The position numbers were made by a program, and so were the translations under genes. Of a stretch of 64,000 nucleotides of DNA, positions 3,805 to 35,680 are shown piece by piece (positions within the stretch are counted from its first letter, which is position 1; the number at the start of each line of letters is the position of its first letter). The notes under the pieces were generated by a model, which ran no database searches, was not told the DNA's origin, and saw only the letters and a list, made by a program, of their open reading frames with translations. This DNA is from Oscillospiraceae bacterium (GTDB lineage: Bacteria; Bacillota; Clostridia; Oscillospirales; Ruminococcaceae), in the NCBI GenBank assembly GCA_017468365.1, contig JAFUIS010000010.1, forward strand, positions 62,001 through 126,000, given 5' to 3'.

Positions 3805-4206
3805 ATGTATGATTCTAACCCTTACTTCTACGGTACCGGTAGAAGAAAAAGCTCTGTAGCTCGTGTTCGCGTTTATCCTAACGGAACCGGCGCAATCACC
3901 ATCAACGGCCGCGACATCGACGATTATTTCGGCCTTGACACCCTTAAACTCATCGTTCGTCAGCCCATGGAACTCACCGAAACCATCGGTGCATTCGACA
4001 TCGTTTGCACTGTTGCAGGCGGCGGTGTAACCGGCCAGGCAGGCGCAATCCGTCACGGCCTTTCCCGTGCTCTTCTTCAGTACAACGAAGAGCTCAGACC
4101 TACCCTCAAAAAAGCAGGTCTTCTTACCCGTGACCCCAGAATGAAAGAACGTAAAAAATACGGTCTCAAAAAAGCACGTCGTGCACCTCAGTTCTCCAAA
4201 CGTTAA
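3805..4206 (+). CDS. rpsI: Ribosomal protein S9 (uS9)
   Basis: A 133-residue S9 whose C-terminal tail reaches the P-site tRNA in the small subunit. It shows [18 protein letters not shown] near the N terminus, the conserved [17 protein letters not shown] and the basic tail [18 protein letters not shown] ending in the invariant Lys-Arg. A GGAGG site precedes the ATG. The last codons and the terminator are duplicated about 7.6 kb downstream (4189-4260 and 11760-11832), which makes the 3' end of this gene a probable integration site. Confidence 0.98.
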
Positions 4207-4260
4207 TCGTTTTCAAGAGAATGTTCAGGAACCTCACCTTCGGGTGGGGTTCTTTTTTGT
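4189..4260. repeat. Direct repeat copy A: 3' end of rpsI plus terminator (attL-like)
   Basis: This 72-base segment covers the codons QFSKR, the stop and the rpsI terminator. It recurs at 11760-11832 with two substitutions (4202 G versus A, 4229 G versus T) and one extra T in the T-run. The two copies flank about 7.5 kb of accessory genes. The 3' end of rpsI is a known insertion site for integrative elements in Firmicutes, so the pair is best read as attL/attR remnants. No integrase is left inside. Confidence 0.8.
4229..4258 (+). terminator. rpsI terminator
   Basis: Arms GAACCTCACC and GGTGGGGTTC close a TTCG tetraloop and are followed by six T. The hairpin is part of the duplicated segment. 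Confidence 0.92.
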
Positions 4261-4284
4261 ATAAAAAGAAAATCCCCTGCAAAG

Positions 4285-4398
4285 CAGGAAGGCATAAACG
4301 AAGCACTCAAAAAGCGGGATCAGATGAAGTGGGTCGGAAGAATGAATAACATTAGGAACGGGGTAGAGGAAATAATTATTGATGAAATTATGAAATAA
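4285..4398 (+). pseudogene. tnpV: 3' fragment of tnpV (transposon-encoded protein)
   Basis: An open frame ending at TAA 4396-4398 reads ALKKRDQMKWVGRMNNIR and then NGVEEIIIDEIMK. This matches the conserved C terminus of the TnpV family (QMxWVGRMNxIRxxAEEI), a small protein carried by Clostridial Tn4451-like and other integrative elements. The N-terminal two thirds and a start codon are missing; upstream sequence is the rpsI terminator. It is a footprint of mobile DNA directly next to the left repeat. Assignment is from remembered family sequence, not a search. Confidence 0.7.
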
Positions 4399-4475
4399 TA
4401 TCAATGTGCTTTTGGAATATTTAATTTCCGTTTTTGCTGAAAGTTTTCCGATTTATAGAAACAAAATTGATGTTG

Positions 4476-4484
4476 TGATATAAT
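4476..4484 (+). promoter_or_regulatory. Extended -10 promoter for the 4490-4630 RNA
   Basis: TG-A-TATAAT lies at 4476-4484, with no good -35 hexamer. The sequence after it, TATAATCAAAAAA, is shared with the -10 region at 5673 upstream of the cobalamin riboswitch. Confidence 0.55.
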
Positions 4485-4489
4485 CAAAA

Positions 4490-4630
4490 AACAGTTTTTT
4501 CATAAACTGTGCGGTTTTGAACCGGACTTGTGCTTTCTTCGGTTCAGACCAACGTGAAAGGCACTCCTTGATGCCTTCCGGGAAAAGGCAGCCCTCTGTA
4601 AAGCGGCGTTTTGCAGGGGGCGGTTTTTTT
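4490..4630 (+). ncRNA. Structured non-coding RNA or leader, family not recognised
   Basis: After the extended -10 at 4479 come three predicted hairpins: GAACCG with CGGTTC, AAGGCA with TGCCTT, and a final long stem CCCTCTGTAAA with TTTTGCAGGGGG followed by seven T (4591-4630). The last is a strong intrinsic terminator. This is the layout of a small RNA or an attenuating leader ahead of the small gene at 4774. I could not match it to the cobalamin, FMN, TPP, SAM, preQ1, glycine, lysine or c-di-GMP consensus. The stretch 4399-4475 and 4631-4760 shows nothing else. Confidence 0.45.
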
Positions 4631-4773
4631 ATAACAAACTTTTCAGACGCATAGAAAAAATGACCATCATTGCTGTTTTTGCTTCCGAATTTGCCGTTAT
4701 GGCCGAAAAGAATTGATTAAATTTTTTCGGGAATATAAAATGAAACCGCAAAATATGTTAGGAGGCTGTTATT

Positions 4774-4929
4774 ATGGATATCAATGAAGAAAAAATTATT
4801 GAAGAAATCAAAAGAGTTTTTGCCGCAAAGGTATCTTCTTCCGATGAGCCTTGCTGCAAATGCGGAGGAAAATCTCCGATGGAAATGAGATGGAACGTTG
4901 AGGAAAAGGATAAACCTGTTGAAGCATAA
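4774..4929 (+). CDS. Small Cys-rich protein of unknown function
   Basis: A 51-residue ORF with an excellent TTAGGAGG ribosome site. The N-terminal half is a charged helix (NEEKIIEEIKRVFAAK). The second half carries a Cys cluster, CCKCGGK, followed by SPMEMRWNVEE. Three cysteines in C-C-x-C spacing suggest metal or thiol chemistry. It lies after the unassigned RNA leader and 62 bases before a cobalamin adenosyltransferase, so a role in corrinoid handling is possible but unproven. No family was recognised. Confidence 0.6.
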   Translation: MDINEEKIIEEIKRVFAAKVSSSDEPCCKCGGKSPMEMRWNVEEKDKPVEA

Positions 4930-4946
4930 TTCAGCAGTTGATTCCG

Positions 4947-4970
4947 CGGGCGGATATCCGCCCGTCTTTT
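4947..4970 (+). terminator. Short palindrome with T-tract between two genes
   Basis: CGGGCGGATATCCGCCCG is a perfect 18-base palindrome followed by TCTTTT, sitting between the small Cys-rich gene and the adenosyltransferase gene. It could terminate or attenuate read-through. Confidence 0.55.
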
Positions 4971-4991
4971 AATATATAAAGGAGAAAGCGT

Positions 4992-5510
4992 ATGTTCGGA
5001 CTTATACATATTTACTGCGGAAACGGAAAAGGAAAAACCACCGCCGCAACAGGGCTTGCAGTTCGTGCGGCAGGTTTCGGTAAAAAGGTTGTTTTTTGTC
5101 AGTTTTTCAAAAACGGAACCTCCAGCGAACTTAAATCTTTCGAAAAGCTTGAAAATATAACCGTTTTTAACTGCAGGAAAGCCTACGGACTTTACTGTAA
5201 TATGAGTGAGGAAGAAAAGGAGAATGCCGCAAAAGATTATGGGGAACTTCTGGAAAAAGCTCTTTCAGAGGCACCGGATGCCGATCTTCTTGTTCTTGAC
5301 GAAGCGATTTCTTCGTGTAACCATAAAATGATAAGCGAAGAAAGACTTTTGGATTTTCTTGAAAACAAACCAAAGGAACTTGAAGTTGTTCTTACCGGGC
5401 GAAACCCCTCCGAAAGACTTTTGAGCATGGCAGACTATGTTACCGAGATGAATAAAATAAAGCACCCTTATGACAAAGGCACTCCGGCAAGAAAGGGAAT
5501 TGAATTTTGA
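4992..5510 (+). CDS. Cob(I)alamin / cob(I)yrinic acid a,c-diamide adenosyltransferase
   Basis: A 172-residue CobA/CobO/BtuR-type enzyme that transfers the 5'-deoxyadenosyl group of ATP to cobalt(I) corrinoids, making coenzyme B12. The P-loop is at the N terminus (IYCGNGKGKTTAATGLAVRAAG), followed by VVFCQFFKNG, the Walker B-like LLVLDEAISSCNHKMI and the family motif EVVLTGRNPSERLLSMADYVTEM. The C terminus KHPYDKGTPARKGIEF is the conserved substrate-side tail. Length is normal. The start has an AAGGAG site. It lies inside the rpsI-bounded island, upstream of a cobalamin riboswitch. Confidence 0.93.
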   Translation: MFGLIHIYCGNGKGKTTAATGLAVRAAGFGKKVVFCQFFKNGTSSELKSFEKLENITVFNCRKAYGLYCNMSEEEKENAAKDYGELLEKALSEAPDADLLVLDEAISSCNHKMISEERLLDFLENKPKELEVVLTGRNPSERLLSMADYVTEMNKIKHPYDKGTPARKGIEF

Positions 5511-5526
5511 GTACCCCGTTAGGTGA

Positions 5527-5571
5527 CCAAACTTGCTGACTTTTTTCAAAAAGCAAAGTTAGCAAGTTTGG
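5527..5571. repeat. Long inverted repeat downstream of the adenosyltransferase
   Basis: Arms CCAAACTTGCT-ACTTT and AAAGT-AGCAAGTTTGG pair around a short A/T loop, with one unpaired base on each side. No T-run follows, so it is either a weak terminator, an RNA-processing site or a protein-binding palindrome. Confidence 0.6.
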
Positions 5572-5579
5572 CGGTTACA

Positions 5580-5606
5580 TTGACAGGCGAACAGTGATAA
5601 TATAAA
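5580..5606 (+). promoter_or_regulatory. Probable promoter upstream of the cobalamin riboswitch
   Basis: TTGACA at 5580-5585 is followed by TATAAA at 5601-5606 with a short 15-base spacer. A second possible -10, TATAAT, is at 5673-5678 without a clear -35. Confidence 0.45.
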
Positions 5607-5618
5607 CAAAGGAATAAG

Positions 5619-5671
5619 TACATTGTGTTCCTGTGCCTTCAGATATCAAGGCATTGGAAAAATACAATGTA
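5619..5671. repeat. Nested inverted repeat
   Basis: Three stacked complementary pairs fold into one imperfect stem: TACATTGT with ACAATGTA, TTCC with GGAA and TGCCTT with AAGGCA. It ends immediately before a TATAAT at 5673. It may be a regulator site or a structured leader element. Confidence 0.5.
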
Positions 5672-5700
5672 GTATAATCAAAAAAGAAATTGAATAAGCT

Positions 5701-5908
5701 GCATCAAGTTCCGCGTAAAGACCGGCTTTTGTCGGGCGTTGGAATAAGGAAATCCGGTTGGAGTCCGGAGCCCACCCAGGGGCTGTAAATGCAGGAGTTT
5801 TTTATCCGCGGCGCAAGCCGGCCATTGGCCAGAAGCTGAGAAGGTAGGATAAAAGACGCAGGAAAACTTTTGTTTTCCCCAATGCATAAGCCAGAAAGCC
5901 TTTGATGA
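5701..5908 (+). promoter_or_regulatory. Cobalamin (B12) riboswitch
   Basis: The P1 stem is CATCAAG (5702-) with CTTTGATG (to 5907). Conserved aptamer blocks are present in order: GGAAATCCGGTTGGAGTCCGG near 5748-5768 matching GGGAA-GGUG-AAUCC, GCTGTAA, the CCATTG...GAAGG block, and the B12 box AAGCCAGAAAGCC near 5888-5900 in place of AGCCAGGAGACCUGCC. Terminators follow directly, so ligand binding probably stops transcription of the genes from 6021 onward. Confidence 0.9.
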
Positions 5909-5913
5909 TCGAA

Positions 5914-5950
5914 CCCGAAGAACGCATTTTATGCGCGGACGGGATTTTTT
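5914..5950 (+). terminator. Riboswitch expression-platform terminator
   Basis: CCCG pairs with CGGG around an inner ACGCAT/ATGCG stem, followed by ATTTTTT. It starts six bases after the aptamer P1 stem. Confidence 0.7.
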
Positions 5951-5965
5951 GGGAACAGAAATTCG

Positions 5966-6000
5966 GCTGCAATGACCAAGGTGTCATTGCAGCTTTTTTT
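5966..6000 (+). terminator. Second terminator after the cobalamin riboswitch
   Basis: Arms GCTGCAATGA and TCATTGCAGC enclose an eight-base loop and are followed by seven T, 20 bases before the first gene of the unit. Confidence 0.85.
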
Positions 6001-6020
6001 ATTGCAAAAAGGAGAAAACA

Positions 6021-6311
6021 GTGATTTTGGAAGAAAGAATTGTTTCAAGGGAAGAAAAGCGCGGACTTAACAATGAAAGAAAGGAAATCGAAAGTAAGTT
6101 CGCAAAAGAGCATGAAAAAGACAGCGACGAAGAACTTCTCGATATAGTGCGGAACAAGGCGAATGAACTTGGAAGACCGCCTAAAAAGACCGAAACTATC
6201 GGCTTTGTTTATCTTAAAATGCGCTTTGGCCCATGGCCAAGGGTTCTTGAAAAAGCCGGACTGAAAAAGCCGAAAACAAAACGCAGTAAAACAAGGGGAG
6301 TTTTCCCATAA
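6021..6311 (+). CDS. Small protein with a homing-endonuclease-associated (HNH_repeat) module
   Basis: A 96-residue basic protein with a GTG start and an AAAGGAG site. Residues 1-35 are a charged helix. Residues about 36-84 (DEELLDIVRNKANELGRPPK, then RFGPWPRVLEKAGLKKP) match the helical repeat seen next to HNH homing endonucleases and in stand-alone DNA-binding proteins: the E-LGR-P turn and the F-G-W--L--AGL end are diagnostic. No nuclease domain is present. It is the first gene downstream of the cobalamin riboswitch, so it may be a DNA-binding regulator of the module or cargo of a mobile element. Confidence 0.7.
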   Translation: MILEERIVSREEKRGLNNERKEIESKFAKEHEKDSDEELLDIVRNKANELGRPPKKTETIGFVYLKMRFGPWPRVLEKAGLKKPKTKRSKTRGVFP

Positions 6312-6385
6312 GTTTTTAATAAGGAAAAGGAAAGAAGTGGTTCAAAAAGTTTTTGCACAAACTGAATAAAAGGAAGGAGAAAGAA

Positions 6386-7549
6386 ATGAAAAAGAAAATT
6401 TTAAGCATTTTTATGGCAGTGTTGATGGTTGTTCTTATGCTGCCCACCGTTGCCTTTGCGGACGAAACTTTGCAGGGCGACACAAACAGAAACGGAACTG
6501 TTGACGTTTATATGACCATAAGCGAAGGACAGAACGGCTTTTACGAAACCTATACCGGCGAAGCCCTTTTCCATGCGCTGCTCAAAGTTCCCTATTTCGA
6601 CCTTGCCCTTTACGGACTTGAGCATTATTATTACAACCCGGATTGCTACACCGGAACCCAGCAGCCCGGAACAAAACAGTCCGCCGAAGGCATCGTCACT
6701 TCCATGCATGTATTTATTTACGCAACGGAAAAATACATGCTCGGAGTCGAGGACAAAAATCTCGGCAAGGGAAAATATAACGACGAGCTTTTTAAATATA
6801 TAAGCTGGAGCCAGGGCGCAGGTTCTTCCTTTATGTCCTTCTGGAACGGAAGCACCAACCTCAACTATTATCTTGATTATATGTTCCCTCTCGGAAAACC
6901 CGGCTGGGGTTCCACCAGCGACCAGCAGGCTCTCCACGACGGTTCCAAAATCGATATCCATCTTATCAAGGACCAGGGTGTAATGGGTTCCAGCTACAGC
7001 TGCTTCAAAACCGAAGACGGAACTCTTGATATGGCGGAAATAACTGTTGGAGAAAGCATTACCCTTACCCTTCAGAGAACCCTTTCCGGCTATAACAGCA
7101 CTGCAACTTTCGAAGAACTTCCTGGCGTTGAAGCTTTCTATATTGCAAAGGAAGATTATTCCGTAGACCGGAACGTCGGAACCGAAGGCTGGATTTCCCT
7201 TGGAACCACCGATGAAAACGGAAAGGTAACGATCCCTTCCGATCTTGCCGCAGGAACTTATTATATTTCCTGCCTTGGCGAAGTGATCGGTTCTTCCGAA
7301 CGCGGACCGGCGGCATTTATTCTCAAAGTCAGAAAAACCGCCGCTGATATTATTATCGGCGATGCGGACGGCGACGGATTTGTAACCGCAATAGATGCTT
7401 CCTATGTTCTTCAGAAAGTTGCGGAAACGGAAGTTGAAATTGACGAAACCGCGGCCGACGTTGACGGTGACGGATTTATAACCGCAATAGATGCTTCCTA
7501 TATTCTGCAGTACGTTGCGGAAATCATTGATGAATTCCCCGTTTCCTAA
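6386..7549 (+). CDS. Secreted DUF4430 (transcobalamin-like) protein with C-terminal type I dockerin
   Basis: A 387-residue secreted protein. The start is ATG 6386 with a strong AAGGAAGGAG site; an upstream in-frame TTG at 6353 has none. A signal peptide covers residues 1-26 ending VAFADE. A short DTNRNGTVD loop follows. Residues about 38-195 resemble the DUF4430/transcobalamin C-terminal fold of gut Firmicutes surface proteins (SMHVFIYATEKYM, FMSFWNGSTNLNYYLDYMFP, GWGSTSDQQALHDGSKIDI). A beta-rich middle follows. The C terminus is a dockerin with two calcium loops, DADGDGFVTAIDASYVLQ near 325 and DVDGDGFITAIDASYILQ near 358. It lies under a B12 riboswitch and 27 bases before a cohesin protein, its likely docking partner. 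Corrinoid binding is inferred. Confidence 0.8.
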   Translation: MKKKILSIFMAVLMVVLMLPTVAFADETLQGDTNRNGTVDVYMTISEGQNGFYETYTGEALFHALLKVPYFDLALYGLEHYYYNPDCYTGTQQPGTKQSAEGIVTSMHVFIYATEKYMLGVEDKNLGKGKYNDELFKYISWSQGAGSSFMSFWNGSTNLNYYLDYMFPLGKPGWGSTSDQQALHDGSKIDIHLIKDQGVMGSSYSCFKTEDGTLDMAEITVGESITLTLQRTLSGYNSTATFEELPGVEAFYIAKEDYSVDRNVGTEGWISLGTTDENGKVTIPSDLAAGTYYISCLGEVIGSSERGPAAFILKVRKTAADIIIGDADGDGFVTAIDASYVLQKVAETEVEIDETAADVDGDGFITAIDASYILQYVAEIIDEFPVS

Positions 7550-7576
7550 AAAAACGGGCAGTAAAGGAGAATTAAA

Positions 7577-10500
7577 ATGAAAAAATTCTTGTCAATGCTT
7601 CTTGCCGTTCTTATGGTTGTGGGAATGTTTCCCATGACCGCTCTTGCGGCGGAGGTTCCGGCGGAACTCAATATTGCAGAAATTTCTGCAGGCGATGCTT
7701 TTGAAAAAGGCGAAACTCTTAAATTTTCCAAATGGGGAATGGAAGGCTATTCCGCACCCAGCTGGATTGCAACCGTTCCCGCGGGGACCGAAACCGTTAA
7801 AATCACCTATAAAAGCGACGACGTTCCCACTTACAGCGGAAAAATTTCCGGCGGCTGGCTCAGCTATAACGAAGAAGCCGGAGCTTACGATATGGGCGGC
7901 AAAGACCTTCCTTATGAAGAAGTAAGCGGCGGTTATGCAATTACCCTTGACGTAAAATCCATGATTGAAAACGGAAACTATTACGTAAAATACGACCGCA
8001 ATTATGTAGAACAATATGCTCTCGGCTTTAAATATGCTGAAGAAGTTTCCGGACCGAAAATCACTCTTTCCACCGATGCTGAATCCCTTGCGGTCGGCGA
8101 TAAATTCGCCGTTACCGCAACTCTTTCCGGCAACGAAGGATTCAACGCAATCACCCTTAAGCTCGATTGGAACGATTCCGCAGTTGAATTCACCGGATTC
8201 AACGTAATCGAGGAAGACGGCGAAAAATATCTTGATTCCGAACTTGCGGACGTAAGAAACCTTACCCTTGAATTCAACCAGGACAAAGGTATTGTTACCG
8301 CGGCAAGAACTTCCGACACCACGTTTAACGGCGTTCTTTTTGTTGCAAACTTTGAAGTTACCGGCAACGGCAAAGCGGAAATTTCCCTTAAAAAAGAATT
8401 CCCGGATTTTGTTTTTGCAAACGCAGCAGGCACCGAAACAAAAGTGAACTTTGACGAAACCGACGTTGAAGGACTTGGTCCTGTTGTTCCCGCAACCTCC
8501 GTCACTCTTAACAAAACCGAACTTTCTCTTGAAGAAGGCGGCGCAAACTATCTTCTTACCGCAACCGTTGAACCTTCCGATTCCACCGACAGCGTTGTTT
8601 TCGCTTCCAGCGATGAAAACGTTGCAACCGTTACCAAAGGCGGCAACGTTGTTTCCGTAAAACCCGGCACCGCAACCATCACCGTAACCGCAGGTTCTGT
8701 TTCCGCGGAATGTGTTGTAACCGTAACTCCGGAAGCAAACATCATCAAAAAAACGCCCAATAACTACAGCGATTATGTCGATGCAGAAATGACCGGCGTA
8801 AAATCCATCCAGTTTGGCGGCGAAACCCTTGAAGTCAGAAACATCTATAAAGTAACCCTTGCGGGTCACGAAGAATGCTATATCCAGTGCAGCAAATCCG
8901 ACATGTCCAGCTCCCATGCGGGATACACTCTTGACGGAACCCATGTTATGGGCGACGCAACCTGGGGAACCGGTTTCGGCAGCACTTATTTCAACGGCTC
9001 CTATGGTTACAAAACAAAAGATTATATCGTTTCCTATGATGATCTCAAAGCCGCAGTCGGCGAAGAGAACATGGATAAACTCGGCGTTACCGAAGAGGAT
9101 AAGCTCGCTGTTCTTGTTTTCAAAAAAGTTGGCGCATCCTTCAACTACGTTATTCTTTTCGATATTGACCCCGTTGCTCTTGAAGGAATTTCCATCGACG
9201 AAAAAACCGAAATCGATAAAGGCAGCACCAAAGAACTTAAAGTTACTTTCAATCCTTCCGGTGCGGACGAAGTTGTAACCTGGAAGTCCTCCGATGAATC
9301 CGTTGCAACCGTTGATGAAAACGGCGTTGTAACCGCTGTTAAAAACGGCAAGGCAACCATCACCGCAACAGCAGGCGAATTTTCCGATACCTGCGAAGTA
9401 ACCGTAAGAACTTCGATCAAAAACATTCCTTCCAACGGCGACTACCGCGGAAACGTTACCGGAATCTATGTTTCCGGCGTTGAAGTTGACGGATATAAAT
9501 GGGAGGATAAAACCCTTACCGTTTACGTTGACAAAACCACCAACGCAACCGCAACCGTTGTTTTCGACTGGTCCTACAGCTATTATCGGAACCAGGTTAG
9601 CACCTATGAGGTTGAAGTCAAAAACGGCGAAGGATACCTTGATGAATTCCGTGAATACGGCGATTGGGTAGTTAAATTTGCTCCCACCGTTCCCACCACC
9701 GTTCTTACCGTTGAATCCGAAGCAACCATCGTAAAGGGCTATGAAAAAACTCTTACCGCAACCCGCAACGAAGACACAACCGACAATATGAGCTGGTCCT
9801 CTTCCGATGAAAGCATTGCAACCGTTGATAAAAATGGTAAAGTAAGAGGCATTTCCGAAGGCAAGGCAACCATTACCGTAAAATCCGGCGATCTTGAAGC
9901 TTCCTGCGAAGTTACCGTAATCCTTGTTCACGCAGAATCCGTTAAAATCGTCGGCGACGGCATTGAAAACGGAAAGCTCAGAGTCCTCAAAGGCAAACAG
10001 ATTCAGCTTTCCGAAGTTACCGAACCCGAAGAACATACTGACGAAATCAAATGGAGTTCTTCCAATACCGAAGTTCTCTCCGTACTCGAATGGGCACCCG
10101 GATATTTCAACGCAATAGCTCCCGGCACCTCAACCGTTACCGTAACTGTCGGCGAAGTCAACGCTTCCATCGAAGTTGAAGTTTATGAAGCTCCCGTTGA
10201 AAAAATCACCCTTGATAAAACCGAAGTGACTATTCTTACCGTTGAAACCCTTGTTCTCAACGCAACCACCGACCCCGCTGAACACACTGACGGCAATATC
10301 GAATGGAGTTCTTCCGACGAAACCGTTGTAACCGCAGCAAGGGGAACAAAAACAAGCGGAACCGTAACCCCCGTAGGCGTCGGCGAAGCAACCGTTACCG
10401 CAAAAGTCGGCAATGCTTCCGCAACCTGCAAAGTAACCGTCAAAGAGCCGGAAGAAAACACCGTTATCTGGAAATATGACGGCAACACAATGAACGGCTG

Positions 10501-11527
10501 GCCTCAGCATATGAGCTCTTCCTACGGCATTGGCGCTCTTGTTATGAACGGCACAAAATTTGATTCCGTAGCCGAAGAAAACGGCGTTCAGATCGTAACT
10601 CTTCCCCATGCAACCGCAAAAGACGCAGAAATCAGCCTTAAAGCTTATGCCTGCGGCAGGTACCCGAACTATCTCGGTGTAAACTGGCACGAAGGCGAAG
10701 TAAACCCCCAGAGCTGGAATGACTATGCCAACGAACTTGAACATACCGTCAAACTTGTTGACGGCGAAGCAACCCTTAAAATCCGCGCATACAAAGCTTC
10801 CGGCGCCGGCGCTTCCAGAGAAGGCACCAAGACCTTCAAATTCGTAATCGACGGCGAATGCACATTCGATCAGAAAGTCGCAAGCGAAGAACATCTTGCA
10901 ACCGAAGCAACCTGCACCGAAGCCGCAACTTATTATATGAGCTGCGTTTGCGGAGCAAACGGAACCGAAACCGAACCTTTCTCTTACGGCAAGCCCCTTG
11001 ACCACGATTGGGGCGAACCTGAATATAAATGGGCGGACGACGGTTCTTCCTGCGAAGCAAAACGCGTTTGCAACAGAAACCGGCAGCATGTTGAAAACGC
11101 GAAAGCAACCGAAATAAAATCCGAAGTCGCAAAACCCGCAACCTGCTCCGCAATGGGTGACACCAGATATGAAGCAATCTTTGAGGAAAACTGGGCTCAC
11201 GATTATAAAGCAATCACCGATATCCCCGTTGATGAAGATGCTCACGAATGGGGCGAATGGAAGGTTGTAAAAGAAGCAACCTATTCCGAAGAAGGTCTTA
11301 TGACTCGCGAATGCAAACTTTGCGAAGACGGCTATGAGGAAAAAGTTATTCCGAAGATCCTTAAACCCTCTGCCGCCGAAGACCCCATCACCATCGTTCT
11401 TCCCGGCAGCAAAACCGAAGATGAATCCAACCCCAACACCGGCGCACCGGTATTTGACCTTACCGCAGCAGGAATTGTTGTTCTTGCAGCAACTTCCGCC
11501 GCTCTTGAAATCAAACGCAGAAAATAA
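7577..11527 (+). CDS. Cell-wall scaffold protein: cohesin, Ig-like (BIG2) repeats and NPNTG sorting signal
   Basis: A 1316-residue surface protein. A signal peptide covers residues 1-25. After an N-terminal beta domain comes a cohesin-type domain at about 157-300 (ITLSTDAESLAVGDKFAVTA, GFNAITLKLDWNDSAVEFTG). BIG2-type Ig-like repeats follow near 302-385, 533-613, 712-782, 785-870 and 875-960, each with SSDExVATV and a TITV core. Around 965-1130 there is a beta domain ending in TKTFKFVIDGE, then two Cys-rich segments with CxC/CxxC pairs (about 1105-1250). The end is NPNTG at 1285, a hydrophobic segment and KRRK, a sortase signal of NPxTG type. It follows the dockerin gene by 27 bases, so the pair probably assemble on the wall. 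A sortase B gene is at 34 kb. Confidence 0.82.
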   Translation: MKKFLSMLLAVLMVVGMFPMTALAAEVPAELNIAEISAGDAFEKGETLKFSKWGMEGYSAPSWIATVPAGTETVKITYKSDDVPTYSGKISGGWLSYNEEAGAYDMGGKDLPYEEVSGGYAITLDVKSMIENGNYYVKYDRNYVEQYALGFKYAEEVSGPKITLSTDAESLAVGDKFAVTATLSGNEGFNAITLKLDWNDSAVEFTGFNVIEEDGEKYLDSELADVRNLTLEFNQDKGIVTAARTSDTTFNGVLFVANFEVTGNGKAEISLKKEFPDFVFANAAGTETKVNFDETDVEGLGPVVPATSVTLNKTELSLEEGGANYLLTATVEPSDSTDSVVFASSDENVATVTKGGNVVSVKPGTATITVTAGSVSAECVVTVTPEANIIKKTPNNYSDYVDAEMTGVKSIQFGGETLEVRNIYKVTLAGHEECYIQCSKSDMSSSHAGYTLDGTHVMGDATWGTGFGSTYFNGSYGYKTKDYIVSYDDLKAAVGEENMDKLGVTEEDKLAVLVFKKVGASFNYVILFDIDPVALEGISIDEKTEIDKGSTKELKVTFNPSGADEVVTWKSSDESVATVDENGVVTAVKNGKATITATAGEFSDTCEVTVRTSIKNIPSNGDYRGNVTGIYVSGVEVDGYKWEDKTLTVYVDKTTNATATVVFDWSYSYYRNQVSTYEVEVKNGEGYLDEFREYGDWVVKFAPTVPTTVLTVESEATIVKGYEKTLTATRNEDTTDNMSWSSSDESIATVDKNGKVRGISEGKATITVKSGDLEASCEVTVILVHAESVKIVGDGIENGKLRVLKGKQIQLSEVTEPEEHTDEIKWSSSNTEVLSVLEWAPGYFNAIAPGTSTVTVTVGEVNASIEVEVYEAPVEKITLDKTEVTILTVETLVLNATTDPAEHTDGNIEWSSSDETVVTAARGTKTSGTVTPVGVGEATVTAKVGNASATCKVTVKEPEENTVIWKYDGNTMNGWPQHMSSSYGIGALVMNGTKFDSVAEENGVQIVTLPHATAKDAEISLKAYACGRYPNYLGVNWHEGEVNPQSWNDYANELEHTVKLVDGEATLKIRAYKASGAGASREGTKTFKFVIDGECTFDQKVASEEHLATEATCTEAATYYMSCVCGANGTETEPFSYGKPLDHDWGEPEYKWADDGSSCEAKRVCNRNRQHVENAKATEIKSEVAKPATCSAMGDTRYEAIFEENWAHDYKAITDIPVDEDAHEWGEWKVVKEATYSEEGLMTRECKLCEDGYEEKVIPKILKPSAAEDPITIVLPGSKTEDESNPNTGAPVFDLTAAGIVVLAATSAALEIKRRK

Positions 11528-11557
11528 AATTCCTTCCTTTTAAAATCCCGCAAAACG

Positions 11558-11592
11558 AAAAGGGGCCCTGCATTTTTGCAGGGCCCCTTTTC
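11558..11592 (+). terminator. Terminator of the surface-protein operon
   Basis: Arms AAAAGGGGCCCTGCA and TGCAGGGCCCCTTTT surround a short T-rich loop; the 3' arm ends in T. It is a very stable hairpin. Confidence 0.9.
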
Positions 11593-11617
11593 TGTTTAAA
11601 GTATTAAACTTTATCGA

Positions 11618-11734
11618 ATGCTTCATATAGGTATCACAAAGGCATCAAATACGCTTTTCCGGCAAAAACGAGGTGATTTGTACTTTGCTGAAAAGTGCGT
11701 TGTCAAGCCAAAATCCGGCTCAAAACGGAGATAA
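11618..11734 (+). other. Short open frame in the right end of the island, unassigned
   Basis: A 38-codon frame from ATG to TAA with a basic C terminus (KPKSGSKRR). No ribosome site and no recognised family. It could be the tail of a lost element gene. The remaining 11593-11759 sequence shows nothing else. Confidence 0.2.
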
Positions 11735-11759
11735 AAGTCCGGATTCGGTTCAGGCTTTT

Positions 11760-11832
11760 CAGTTCTCCAAACATTAATCGTTTTCAAGAGAATGTTCAGT
11801 AACCTCACCTTCGGGTGGGGTTCTTTTTTTGT
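11760..11832. repeat. Direct repeat copy B: rpsI 3' end plus terminator (attR-like)
   Basis: Matches 4189-4260 with two mismatches and one T insertion. It still reads QFSK-His-stop in the S9 frame and keeps the TTCG terminator hairpin (11800-11830). No other part of rpsI precedes it, so it is a displaced gene end, as expected for the far attachment site of an integrated element. 11833-11940 holds nothing recognisable. Confidence 0.8.
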
Positions 11833-26634: not shown

Positions 26635-26688
26635 TCTTCCCCGCCAAAAAAAGTTAATGGGCGCATTGCGCTTGTTATAAAAACCAAA

Positions 26689-26830
26689 TAGTTTCGGGGC
26701 AGGGTGAGATTCCCTACCGGCGGTGAAGCGGTTTTATCCGATAAGTCCGAGAGCCTTTTTGGCAGAGCGGGTCAGAATCCCGTACCGACGGTGTGTGCAT
26801 AATTTTTGCATGAGTCCGGATGGCGAAACT
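26689..26830 (+). promoter_or_regulatory. FMN riboswitch (RFN element)
   Basis: Stem P1 is GTTTC with GAAAC. The conserved arms are all present: GGGGCAGGGTGAGATTCCC, TACCGGCGGTGAA, AGTCCGAGAGCC, the CAGAATCCCGTACCGACGGT block, and AGTCCGGATGGCG. It precedes ribU, so high FMN should stop riboflavin uptake. Confidence 0.97.
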
Positions 26831-26844
26831 GCGTAAAGAAATCA

Positions 26845-34132: not shown

Positions 34133-35680
34133 ATGTCCGAAGAATTTAAAAATTCCGAGAACCTCGGCGAAGAAATGCCGAAAAAACGTCCTTTTTCCGT
34201 TAACATAAGCGACGAAGATTTTGCAAACGATATTCCTGCCCCCGAAGGCGACGTTCCCGCAAATCAGAAACCCCATAAAGTGGTTCGCTATGTTGACAAT
34301 ACCCCCAAAACCGAAGCACCCAAAAAACCTGCAAAGAAAGAGAAAAAAAGCTTTGTGGGCGAATTTCTTGCCGGTGCCGCCGCAGGTGCAAAATCCGTTG
34401 GCGAGGGTATTTCCGCAGGCGTAAAAACCGTTTCCGAAAAGAAACCCAAAACCGAAAAACCCGTAAAAGAAGCTCCCAAAAAAGAAGCTGCTCCCGTTAA
34501 AGAAGCCGCTCCCAAAAAAGCTTCCAAACCCGTCAAAGAGGATGAGACCCAGTTCCCCAAAGACGAAAAGAAAAAATCCGCAGCAGCCGGCGGCTTTATG
34601 AGCAAACTCAACGCTCTTCCCGTTGGTGCGGTTATCGGCGGCGCAGCACTTATCCTTGTGGTTCTTGTCGCAATAATCCTTATCTGCGCAACCAGCTGCA
34701 GCCCTTCTGAAGACAACCCTGATACTCCCGATGCTCCCGGCAGCAACATCGTGATCGGACCTTCCGCCGATGAAGAAGAGCCGGAAGAATTCGATCCCAA
34801 GCTTGACGTTCCCACCAGAAAAGATAAATTTGTCGAAGCCTTCAACGCAAACAACGACGTTATGGCATGGCTCTATATCCCCGGTCTTGAGGACGTTGAT
34901 GCAGGCGTTTGCTTCAGCTACGATAAATCCTATCCTTATGACAAACGTGATATCCTTGGCAATAAAGTTGCAAAAACCTATTGGATCGACGGCGCTTATT
35001 ACAGCCACTTCCGTAACATCAAAGGCGAGACCGCCGAAGAACTTTCCACCAACACCGTAATCTTCGGTCACAGCGACCTTGGTCTTACCAATCTTTCCTA
35101 TGCAAACGACGACCCCACCGGTCCTCTTTTCTCCCAGCTTTTCAACTTCAAGGATCCTTCCTTTGCTGAAAAAACTCCTTACGTCTATCTTACTCTTCCT
35201 GAAGAAGACACCGTTTGGGAAGTTTTTGCAGTATTCTATAACGACGCAAAAGCCGAGAACAAGACTTTCTCCCAGTGGTACAAGAAAAACGGCGGTTCCC
35301 TCTGGTATATCGAACCCAGCCCCGTTGAAGCCGAATATGAAGCAATGCTCGAAGCAGTTCAGAGACGTTCCATCTATGATTATGACGTAGAGGTCACCAA
35401 GGACGACAAGATCCTTACCCTTTCCACCTGCACCGTTGCATATGGCCTCAACGCAAGATCCAACTACCGTTTCGTAGTTGTTGCAAAACTTGTTGAAGAC
35501 CTTGAAAACGAGCATATCGCCAAAAATGCTTCCTTCACCATCAAGGCTGACGCACCGATCCCGGATACTTATAAGGCCGAGTTCGAAAAATATCTTGCCG
35601 AGTGGAAACCTTCCGAAGAAATTCTTTACACCGCTGAAGACATCGATTTCGGAACCAAAGCACCCGAATCCGAAGGCTGA
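34133..35680 (+). CDS. Class B sortase with long N-terminal cytoplasmic region
   Basis: A 515-residue membrane transpeptidase. ATG 34133 is preferred; ATG 34121 directly abuts the AAAGGA site. Residues 1-160 are a low-complexity Lys/Pro/Ala/Glu region (KEAPKKEAAPVKEAAPKKAS), much longer than in ordinary SrtB. A membrane segment (GGAALILVVLVAIILICA) follows, then the SrtB barrel. The catalytic triad is visible: His near 313 in VIFGHSDL, Cys near 433 in LTLSTCTV and Arg near 446 in RSNYRFVVVAKL. It cleaves NPxT[N/G]-type or related sorting signals and is a candidate to anchor the NPNTG protein at 7.6-11.5 kb. Confidence 0.9.
   Translation: MSEEFKNSENLGEEMPKKRPFSVNISDEDFANDIPAPEGDVPANQKPHKVVRYVDNTPKTEAPKKPAKKEKKSFVGEFLAGAAAGAKSVGEGISAGVKTVSEKKPKTEKPVKEAPKKEAAPVKEAAPKKASKPVKEDETQFPKDEKKKSAAAGGFMSKLNALPVGAVIGGAALILVVLVAIILICATSCSPSEDNPDTPDAPGSNIVIGPSADEEEPEEFDPKLDVPTRKDKFVEAFNANNDVMAWLYIPGLEDVDAGVCFSYDKSYPYDKRDILGNKVAKTYWIDGAYYSHFRNIKGETAEELSTNTVIFGHSDLGLTNLSYANDDPTGPLFSQLFNFKDPSFAEKTPYVYLTLPEEDTVWEVFAVFYNDAKAENKTFSQWYKKNGGSLWYIEPSPVEAEYEAMLEAVQRRSIYDYDVEVTKDDKILTLSTCTVAYGLNARSNYRFVVVAKLVEDLENEHIAKNASFTIKADAPIPDTYKAEFEKYLAEWKPSEEILYTAEDIDFGTKAPESEG

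Follow-up and report, generated by a model that had tools for sequence, protein, structure and literature searches.

A cobalamin riboswitch-led dockerin–cohesin gene pair in an Oscillospiraceae bacterium, a candidate surface complex for corrinoid capture

The stretch of DNA analyzed here (the window; 64,000 nucleotides of contig JAFUIS010000010.1, assembly GCA_017468365.1, from an Oscillospiraceae bacterium that probably lives in the gut) contains a putative transcription unit in which a cobalamin (B12) riboswitch precedes two adjacent genes, one for a predicted secreted protein with a type I dockerin (the head protein) and one for a predicted wall-anchored protein with a cohesin-fold domain (the partner). 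In the account we favor and consider fairly probable, the two proteins dock to each other, so that a head that likely binds corrinoids is displayed on the cell wall. Judged from the sequence, a two-part, B12-regulated surface complex appears well supported as a genetic design, and we strongly infer both B12-repressed regulation and cohesin–dockerin pairing; from the company that it keeps (riboswitch, importer, and real DUF4430 proteins), the head most likely binds corrinoids. A preliminary description of the region had proposed such a complex for B12 scavenging around a DUF4430, transcobalamin-like head. The complex is retained here on the strength of a single dockerin/cohesin pair, recurrent riboswitches, energy-coupling factor (ECF) and DUF4430 neighbors, and parallel divergence of dockerins and cohesins, but its DUF4430 basis is not.

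The riboswitch-led unit

The riboswitch aptamer (5689–5919; features of the window are on the + strand throughout) matches RF00174 at 41.0 bits, above the gathering score of 31.5, as the preliminary description had supposed. Behind it stands a terminator-like hairpin of 12 pairs with a T run (5965–6001), likely the expression platform; the hairpin itself is placed at 5965–5994, and the segment 5915–6003 folds at −32 kcal/mol (z −4.7). Two terminators had been claimed: this strong one stands, but the second is a weaker hairpin only. Three same-strand genes follow the aptamer, encoding an HNH-repeat protein, the dockerin-bearing head protein, and the 1316-aa partner, and the riboswitch likely controls this entire unit (6021–11527).

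The head protein (6386–7549) comprises a signal-like N-terminus (read from the sequence, without a predictor), the head domain (residues 30–200; 6473–6985), an Ig-like domain, and the type I dockerin (residues 321–387; 7346–7546), which consists of two near-identical F-hand repeats. The dockerin proposed earlier is borne out by a C-terminal match to PF00404 (E 2.9e-12), and both profile and fold agree on a calcium-binding F-hand pair. The head domain belongs to an unnamed family, here TCLN, of at least 140 protein clusters, whose members are named in the sources, if at all, as "dockerin type I repeat-containing protein" or as hypothetical; it is conserved across an 83-row alignment, is associated with riboswitches, and is the proposed corrinoid binder.

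The partner gene (7577–11527) begins 27 bases after the head gene (gap 7550–7576) and encodes an N-terminal domain, the cohesin-fold domain, Big_2 repeats in five stretches (Pfam), and an NPNTG wall-sorting motif (11429–11443) that has a hydrophobic stretch and then a basic tail behind it; spacing, Ig-like repeats, and wall signal are all as first described. The genome holds three sortase genes. The cohesin domain (residues 156–306; 8042–8494) is a more complicated case, since the earlier claim finds no backing in a direct Pfam profile search but is upheld by predicted fold and by relatives that exceed the Pfam cut-off. The modeled domain, of moderate confidence (mean pLDDT, predicted local distance difference test, 68), appears to adopt the cohesin jelly-roll, and the 47 best-ranked entries of the fold search are cohesins or cohesin-like modules. 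A hidden Markov model derived from the window's cohesin matches a 240-aa cohesin-plus-dockerin protein encoded beside the head protein of a related locus, L015 (9e-44), of which the same region scores 32.9 bits against Pfam Cohesin (cut-off 24.1). Pfam Cohesin is also over its cut-off in the partners of L020 (30.0 bits) and L027 (next-door protein, 46.4 bits), with no match at E ≤ 0.01 in the partners of L021, L084, and L085. A direct search of PDB sequences with the window's domain found no cohesin; a profile built from 12 of these domains (A3) matches PDB scaffoldin cohesins and Ruminococcus bromii Amy4, with 7 sequences at E ≤ 0.01. Across the whole genome there is a single dockerin and, by the A3 profile, a single cohesin-like domain, and they are encoded by adjacent genes.

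Related loci, partners, and importers

The evidence is strongest where related loci are compared. Scanning a species-genome collection with the head alignment yielded 27 TCLN loci (L014–L040), mostly from ruminant-gut assemblies; the closest named relative of the head protein (95% identical) comes from an Oscillospiraceae assembly from water-deer rectum. In 15 of these loci Rfam detects cobalamin riboswitches, with 26 matches that all lie on the strand of the TCLN gene (one of them, in L018, after the first TCLN gene and before the second), and in five of five further congeneric loci a riboswitch likewise shares the strand of the gene. The chance that at least 15 of 27 loci carry one on the same strand in the 8 kb before the gene would be about 1.6e-24 at the density of the host genome (4 in 1.86 Mb) and 5e-9 at a generous background of 10%, figures to be read with the caution that the loci are not independent, several being pairs from one genome. 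In the genus, 10 of 15 genomes matched, one of these over just 31 residues. A wide spread within the GTDB family was rejected, given that only 3 of 148 sampled genomes matched, namely the host's own and two with short N-terminal matches (query 3–44 and 3–66).

A TCLN protein carries a dockerin in 20 of the 27 loci, and neighboring cohesins were found in 11 by the window-derived profile and additionally in L027 by Pfam. Adaptor-like proteins combining cohesin and dockerin are encoded in L015, L021, L023, and L024. In two loci, a 1208-aa dockerin protein is encoded between the HNH-repeat and TCLN-dockerin genes (L026, 2339–5965; L027, 4346–7972).

Dockerins and cohesins appear to have diverged in parallel. 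Mantel tests used 13 loci in which a dockerin-bearing TCLN protein is accompanied by a cohesin in a downstream gene (not the next gene in L016 and L020), with the cohesin stretches of L084 and L027 assigned by hand; L019 (truncated head), L023 (distant cohesin), and L086 (contig end) were excluded. Distances among dockerins correlate with those among partner cohesins (r 0.78, permutation p 2e-4, n=13), also in a partial test given head divergence (0.64, p 4e-4, n=13) and when the two hand-assigned cohesins are omitted (partial value 0.63, n=11). Furthermore, at what we take to be the dockerin contact positions, the motif is near-identical in both repeats of each dockerin and differs between loci (TAIDASY, TSMDASY, NPVDIVL, EAFDASL), a pattern as would be expected of specificity pairs.

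Importer genes recur near TCLN as well. In the host genome, riboswitch C9 precedes the gene for a DUF4430 lipoprotein together with those for a CbiQ/EcfT-family protein, an ATPase of ECF type, and an ECF S component that neither Pfam nor NCBIfam names as cobalamin-specific. Among the relatives, L020 reads riboswitch, riboswitch, DUF4430, 1270-aa protein, TCLN-dockerin, dockerin protein, cohesin protein, 365-aa protein, EcfT-like, and EcfA-like; L040 reads riboswitch, TCLN, DUF4430-like, EcfT-like, and EcfA-EcfS-like; and L034 (Blautia sp. Marseille-P3087), whose TCLN protein bears no dockerin, has EcfT, EcfA, and EcfS upstream of TCLN. The Ecf names in L020 and L040 are given by similarity to L010 proteins, and Pfam names the T component (CbiQ, over cut-off) in L010 and L034 and not in L020 or L040. 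In the host genome CbiD has no match, one protein has a B12-binding domain over cut-off, and CobA is present, as expected if the host salvages corrinoids, a single-marker argument.

The genome has a second TCLN gene, on another contig, and both TCLN genes stand behind cobalamin riboswitches. Riboswitch C24 directly precedes the gene for a protein of 1635 aa that combines Big_2 and a divergent TCLN head with a C-terminal NPNTGAPIF; genes for a DUF4430 protein and an alpha-toroid protein come next. This protein (L012, 9084–13991 on the − strand) and two relatives (L079, 11222–16126; L087, 4674–9596) end exactly at the sortase-like NPNTGAPIF, all three without a hydrophobic tail, and the succession of DUF4430 and alpha-toroid (prenyltransferase-like) genes is seen in L012 (6290–9065, − strand) and L087 (9614–12378), where Pfam Prenyltrans is over its cut-off in the former and just under it in the latter. 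By analogy, it is possible that this gene pair is a two-gene counterpart of the two transcobalamin domains. In PDB profile searches, squalene-cyclase-type chains were the best solved relatives of the toroid, and the chains matched by the DUF4430 protein were all weak and unrelated; transcobalamin, considered as a relative of the two, appeared in neither. Elsewhere, a TCLN protein without a dockerin (P0057) seems to carry its own membrane anchor, which would fit, and does not prove, the idea that in the window docking takes the place of direct anchoring.

Proposed corrinoid capture and its alternatives

Taken together, our data suggest the following sequence of events. At low internal B12, the terminator at 5965–5994 would remain unformed and the unit would be expressed, as the riboswitch family leads one to expect. 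The head protein would be exported, and its dockerin would plug into the single cohesin of the neighboring NPNTG protein, itself presumably fixed to peptidoglycan by sortase. Outside the wall, the TCLN head would catch cobamides and potentially hand them to the ECF-type importer encoded behind another B12 riboswitch and beside the DUF4430 lipoprotein (the arrangement is observed; the hand-over is our reading of it), after which CobA, encoded next door, would adenosylate the imported corrinoid. Whether the unit belongs to something larger we put at even chances: a "corrinosome" of gut Oscillospiraceae and their kin, in which B12 riboswitches would drive a modular, cellulosome-like scaffold feeding an ECF importer. 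The same balance applies to its details, namely that cohesins and dockerins would hold one or several corrinoid-binding heads (TCLN, with DUF4430 and alpha-toroid proteins) outside the wall and that specificities would vary by strain.

Several results weigh against this account. One group concerns the head, for which the DUF4430/transcobalamin fold claimed in the preliminary description fails in every sequence comparison made: DUF4430 (PF14478) has no match at E ≤ 1 in the head protein by Pfam, is absent from the 25 most often matched of 54 Pfam families over 83 TCLN sequences, and in profile–profile alignment (hhalign) reaches a non-significant probability of 15%, or 4.7% with larger alignments. 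The best local hhalign match, around Y-x-x-N...L-x-D-G-D, was likewise not significant (P 0.0017 and 0.0085; controls 0.075–0.79), and the DUF4430 label was rejected for the head on these Pfam and hhalign results. No solved B12 binder or transcobalamin is among the fold matches listed, a list filled by the dockerin and Ig parts of the protein and still compatible with a transcobalamin fold in the head.

Further points against the account concern the docking and the regulation. Pfam Cohesin (PF00963) has no match at E ≤ 1 to the window's own domain, 7 of the 27 loci have no dockerin on a TCLN protein, and removing close relatives along with the hand-assigned cohesins lowers the partial Mantel value to 0.39 (p 0.019, n=9). 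The second TCLN protein of the genome has no dockerin, and its chain ends at NPNTGAPIF without a hydrophobic tail, on which ground its fusion to a wall anchor was dropped; the DUF4430 protein encoded next has an LPATG that likewise lacks such a tail. The host genome is a draft (1.86 Mb, 33 contigs) of 97.8% completeness. At the gathering score, 12 of the 27 loci have no riboswitch. In five of these (L016, L017, L032, L036, L037) about 8 kb of upstream sequence contains none, in L016, L017, and L036 even at a permissive setting and in L032 and L037 at the gathering score; L034 has a sub-threshold adenosylcobalamin riboswitch match just before the gene (31 bits, cut-off 50), and the fetched DNA of L019, L025, L029, L030, L031, and L033 starts inside or near the same operon.

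The alternative that best survives these data accepts the riboswitch control and the cohesin–dockerin pair but makes the head an adhesin or enzyme shown by a B12-starved cell, with no corrinoid binding; such a head might attach the cell to B12 producers or to host glycoproteins, or release cobamides from their carriers. TCLN lacks a DUF4430 match, its corrinoid ligand is only proposed, dockerins in known systems mostly carry enzymes, and adhesins often contain Big_2 and Ig-like domains, all of which would suit such a function. We nevertheless consider it rather unlikely, since TCLN genes lie near real DUF4430 or ECF genes in L020, L034, L036, and L040, as fits capture for uptake, and since TCLN is the constant element across many architectures, albeit in loci that were fetched by TCLN.

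Alternatively, dockerin and cohesin may not pair at all, if the dockerin finds its partner on a different cell or if the cohesin is a plain Ig-like spacer. We judge this improbable: although the domain is too divergent for Pfam and its model only moderately confident, the genome encodes one of each in adjacent genes, the neighboring cohesins of L015, L020, and L027 are over the Pfam cut-off, and the parallel divergence goes beyond that of the head.

Genomic setting and known systems

The unit lies in an island (4259–11758) that is flanked on both sides by a 71-nt repeat that comprises the 3′ end of rpsI and its terminator. The left copy (4188–4258) is the end of rpsI with its terminator, the right copy (11759–11829) is 97% identical to it, and a genome-wide search found the repeat in these two places only. 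Congeners have zero to four copies behind rpsI with differing cargo (L076, L073, L071, L070): the island is present in G160 (94% identical), the riboswitch part lies behind rpsI in G148 (L071) without cobA, and G157 and G150 have a single repeat copy and no island. No recombinase was found among the five island genes scanned with Pfam. The site behind rpsI is evidently an insertion hotspot, and a repeat-bracketed region that varies among congeners could in principle have gathered unrelated surface genes and a riboswitch by chance, a reading that we consider highly improbable because the riboswitch–TCLN order recurs at other sites, in divergent relatives, and on another contig of the same genome.

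Upstream of the aptamer, the island carries two further genes. A CobA/CobO/BtuR-type corrinoid adenosyltransferase (4992–5510) matches PF02572 well over its cut-off (E 9.6e-57; 192.4 bits, cut-off 25.7), in keeping with its first annotation, and scores 138.5 bits against NCBIfam cobA, below the equivalog cut-off of 167.75. A long inverted repeat without a T run (5527–5571; the segment 5505–5590 folds at −29.8 kcal/mol, z −4.3) is a possible end of the cobA unit. The small CCKCGG protein, also correctly noted earlier (51 aa; 4774–4929), has no Pfam or NCBIfam match and is found again in L014, L026, L027, L084, and L086 with 47–51 of 51 residues identical; it is near-constant across these loci, and the nearby TCLN proteins diverge. 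Its gene precedes cobA in the window, L014, L084, and L086. Because both genes lie upstream of the aptamer, they are outside its cis control, and cobA was rejected as a member of the riboswitch unit on this position and on L071 (G148), where the riboswitch region follows rpsI without cobA. The association drawn in the preliminary description holds as adjacency, with both genes recurring beside the riboswitch unit in congeners, but not as membership in its transcription unit.

Some further observations concern the first gene of the unit and other riboswitches. The gene for the HNH-repeat protein (6021–6311; 96 aa; PF18780, E 7.8e-15) was overlooked in the preliminary description and has relatives in 12 of the 27 loci. 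In L021, L023, L024, L028, and L083 it is flanked by two cobalamin riboswitches, a position in which it looks like a B12-controlled gene in its own right. The fourth cobalamin riboswitch of the genome (L011, 6382–7690) has a second cobA just upstream, and downstream a 105-aa open reading frame resembles, by eye, an AraC-type helix-turn-helix protein. Elsewhere in the window are a flavin mononucleotide riboswitch (26686–26834, 76.3 bits) and a sortase-domain gene (35039–35494).

Most of the parts belong to known kinds; the portions of the open-licence literature available to us contained no description of how they are combined here or of the head family. Likewise, no cohesin–dockerin device for B12 was found described there, an absence that is not proof. 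Cohesin–dockerin assemblies are best known from the cellulosome and amylosome, as in Clostridium thermocellum CipA and the R. bromii amylosome. The window's unit resembles them in having a type I dockerin on the cargo, a cohesin whose protein also bears a wall-sorting motif, and adaptor-like proteins in relatives. It differs in that the genome has a single plug–socket pair, which a B12 riboswitch precedes; moreover, Pfam finds no enzyme domain in the head or partner protein, whereas a cellulosome would have dockerin-borne plant-polysaccharide enzymes on a scaffoldin. If our account is correct, cohesin–dockerin assembly would serve vitamin uptake besides fiber digestion, and the TCLN family would acquire a function.

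A parallel for a dockerin on a solute-capturing protein comes from anaerobic methanotrophic (ANME) archaea, in which dockerins occur on ATP-binding cassette (ABC) substrate binders for nickel, peptides, or metals, with a proposed link to the outer layer (PMC9012536). Those binders are archaeal and of the nickel/peptide/metal ABC type, and the available portion of that paper mentions neither a vitamin nor a riboswitch. Compared with ECF-type cobalamin importers, of which CbrT is one, the host genome has a riboswitch-DUF4430-ECF set of its own, whereas the window's unit contains no transporter. Like transcobalamin and intrinsic factor, the head is proposed to capture B12 outside the cell, and the other TCLN gene is followed by a DUF4430 and alpha-toroid pair; unlike transcobalamin, however, the window's head is not DUF4430 and the best solved relatives of the toroid are of squalene-cyclase type.

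Competition for cobamides shapes gut communities, and, to our knowledge, detailed descriptions of surface capture of B12 come mainly from Bacteroides, in which BtuG reportedly acts as a surface B12 binder. BtuH is a further surface B12 binder, described in Bacteroidetes (PMC8941943). The head protein would share with BtuG and BtuH an accessory B12-binding role in a gut bacterium, but with a Gram-positive-type wall signal in place of an outer-membrane lipoprotein, with other domains, and held by a cohesin–dockerin pair. If the wider corrinosome were confirmed, it would be a first cohesin–dockerin machine for vitamin capture and a Gram-positive counterpart to BtuG and BtuH.

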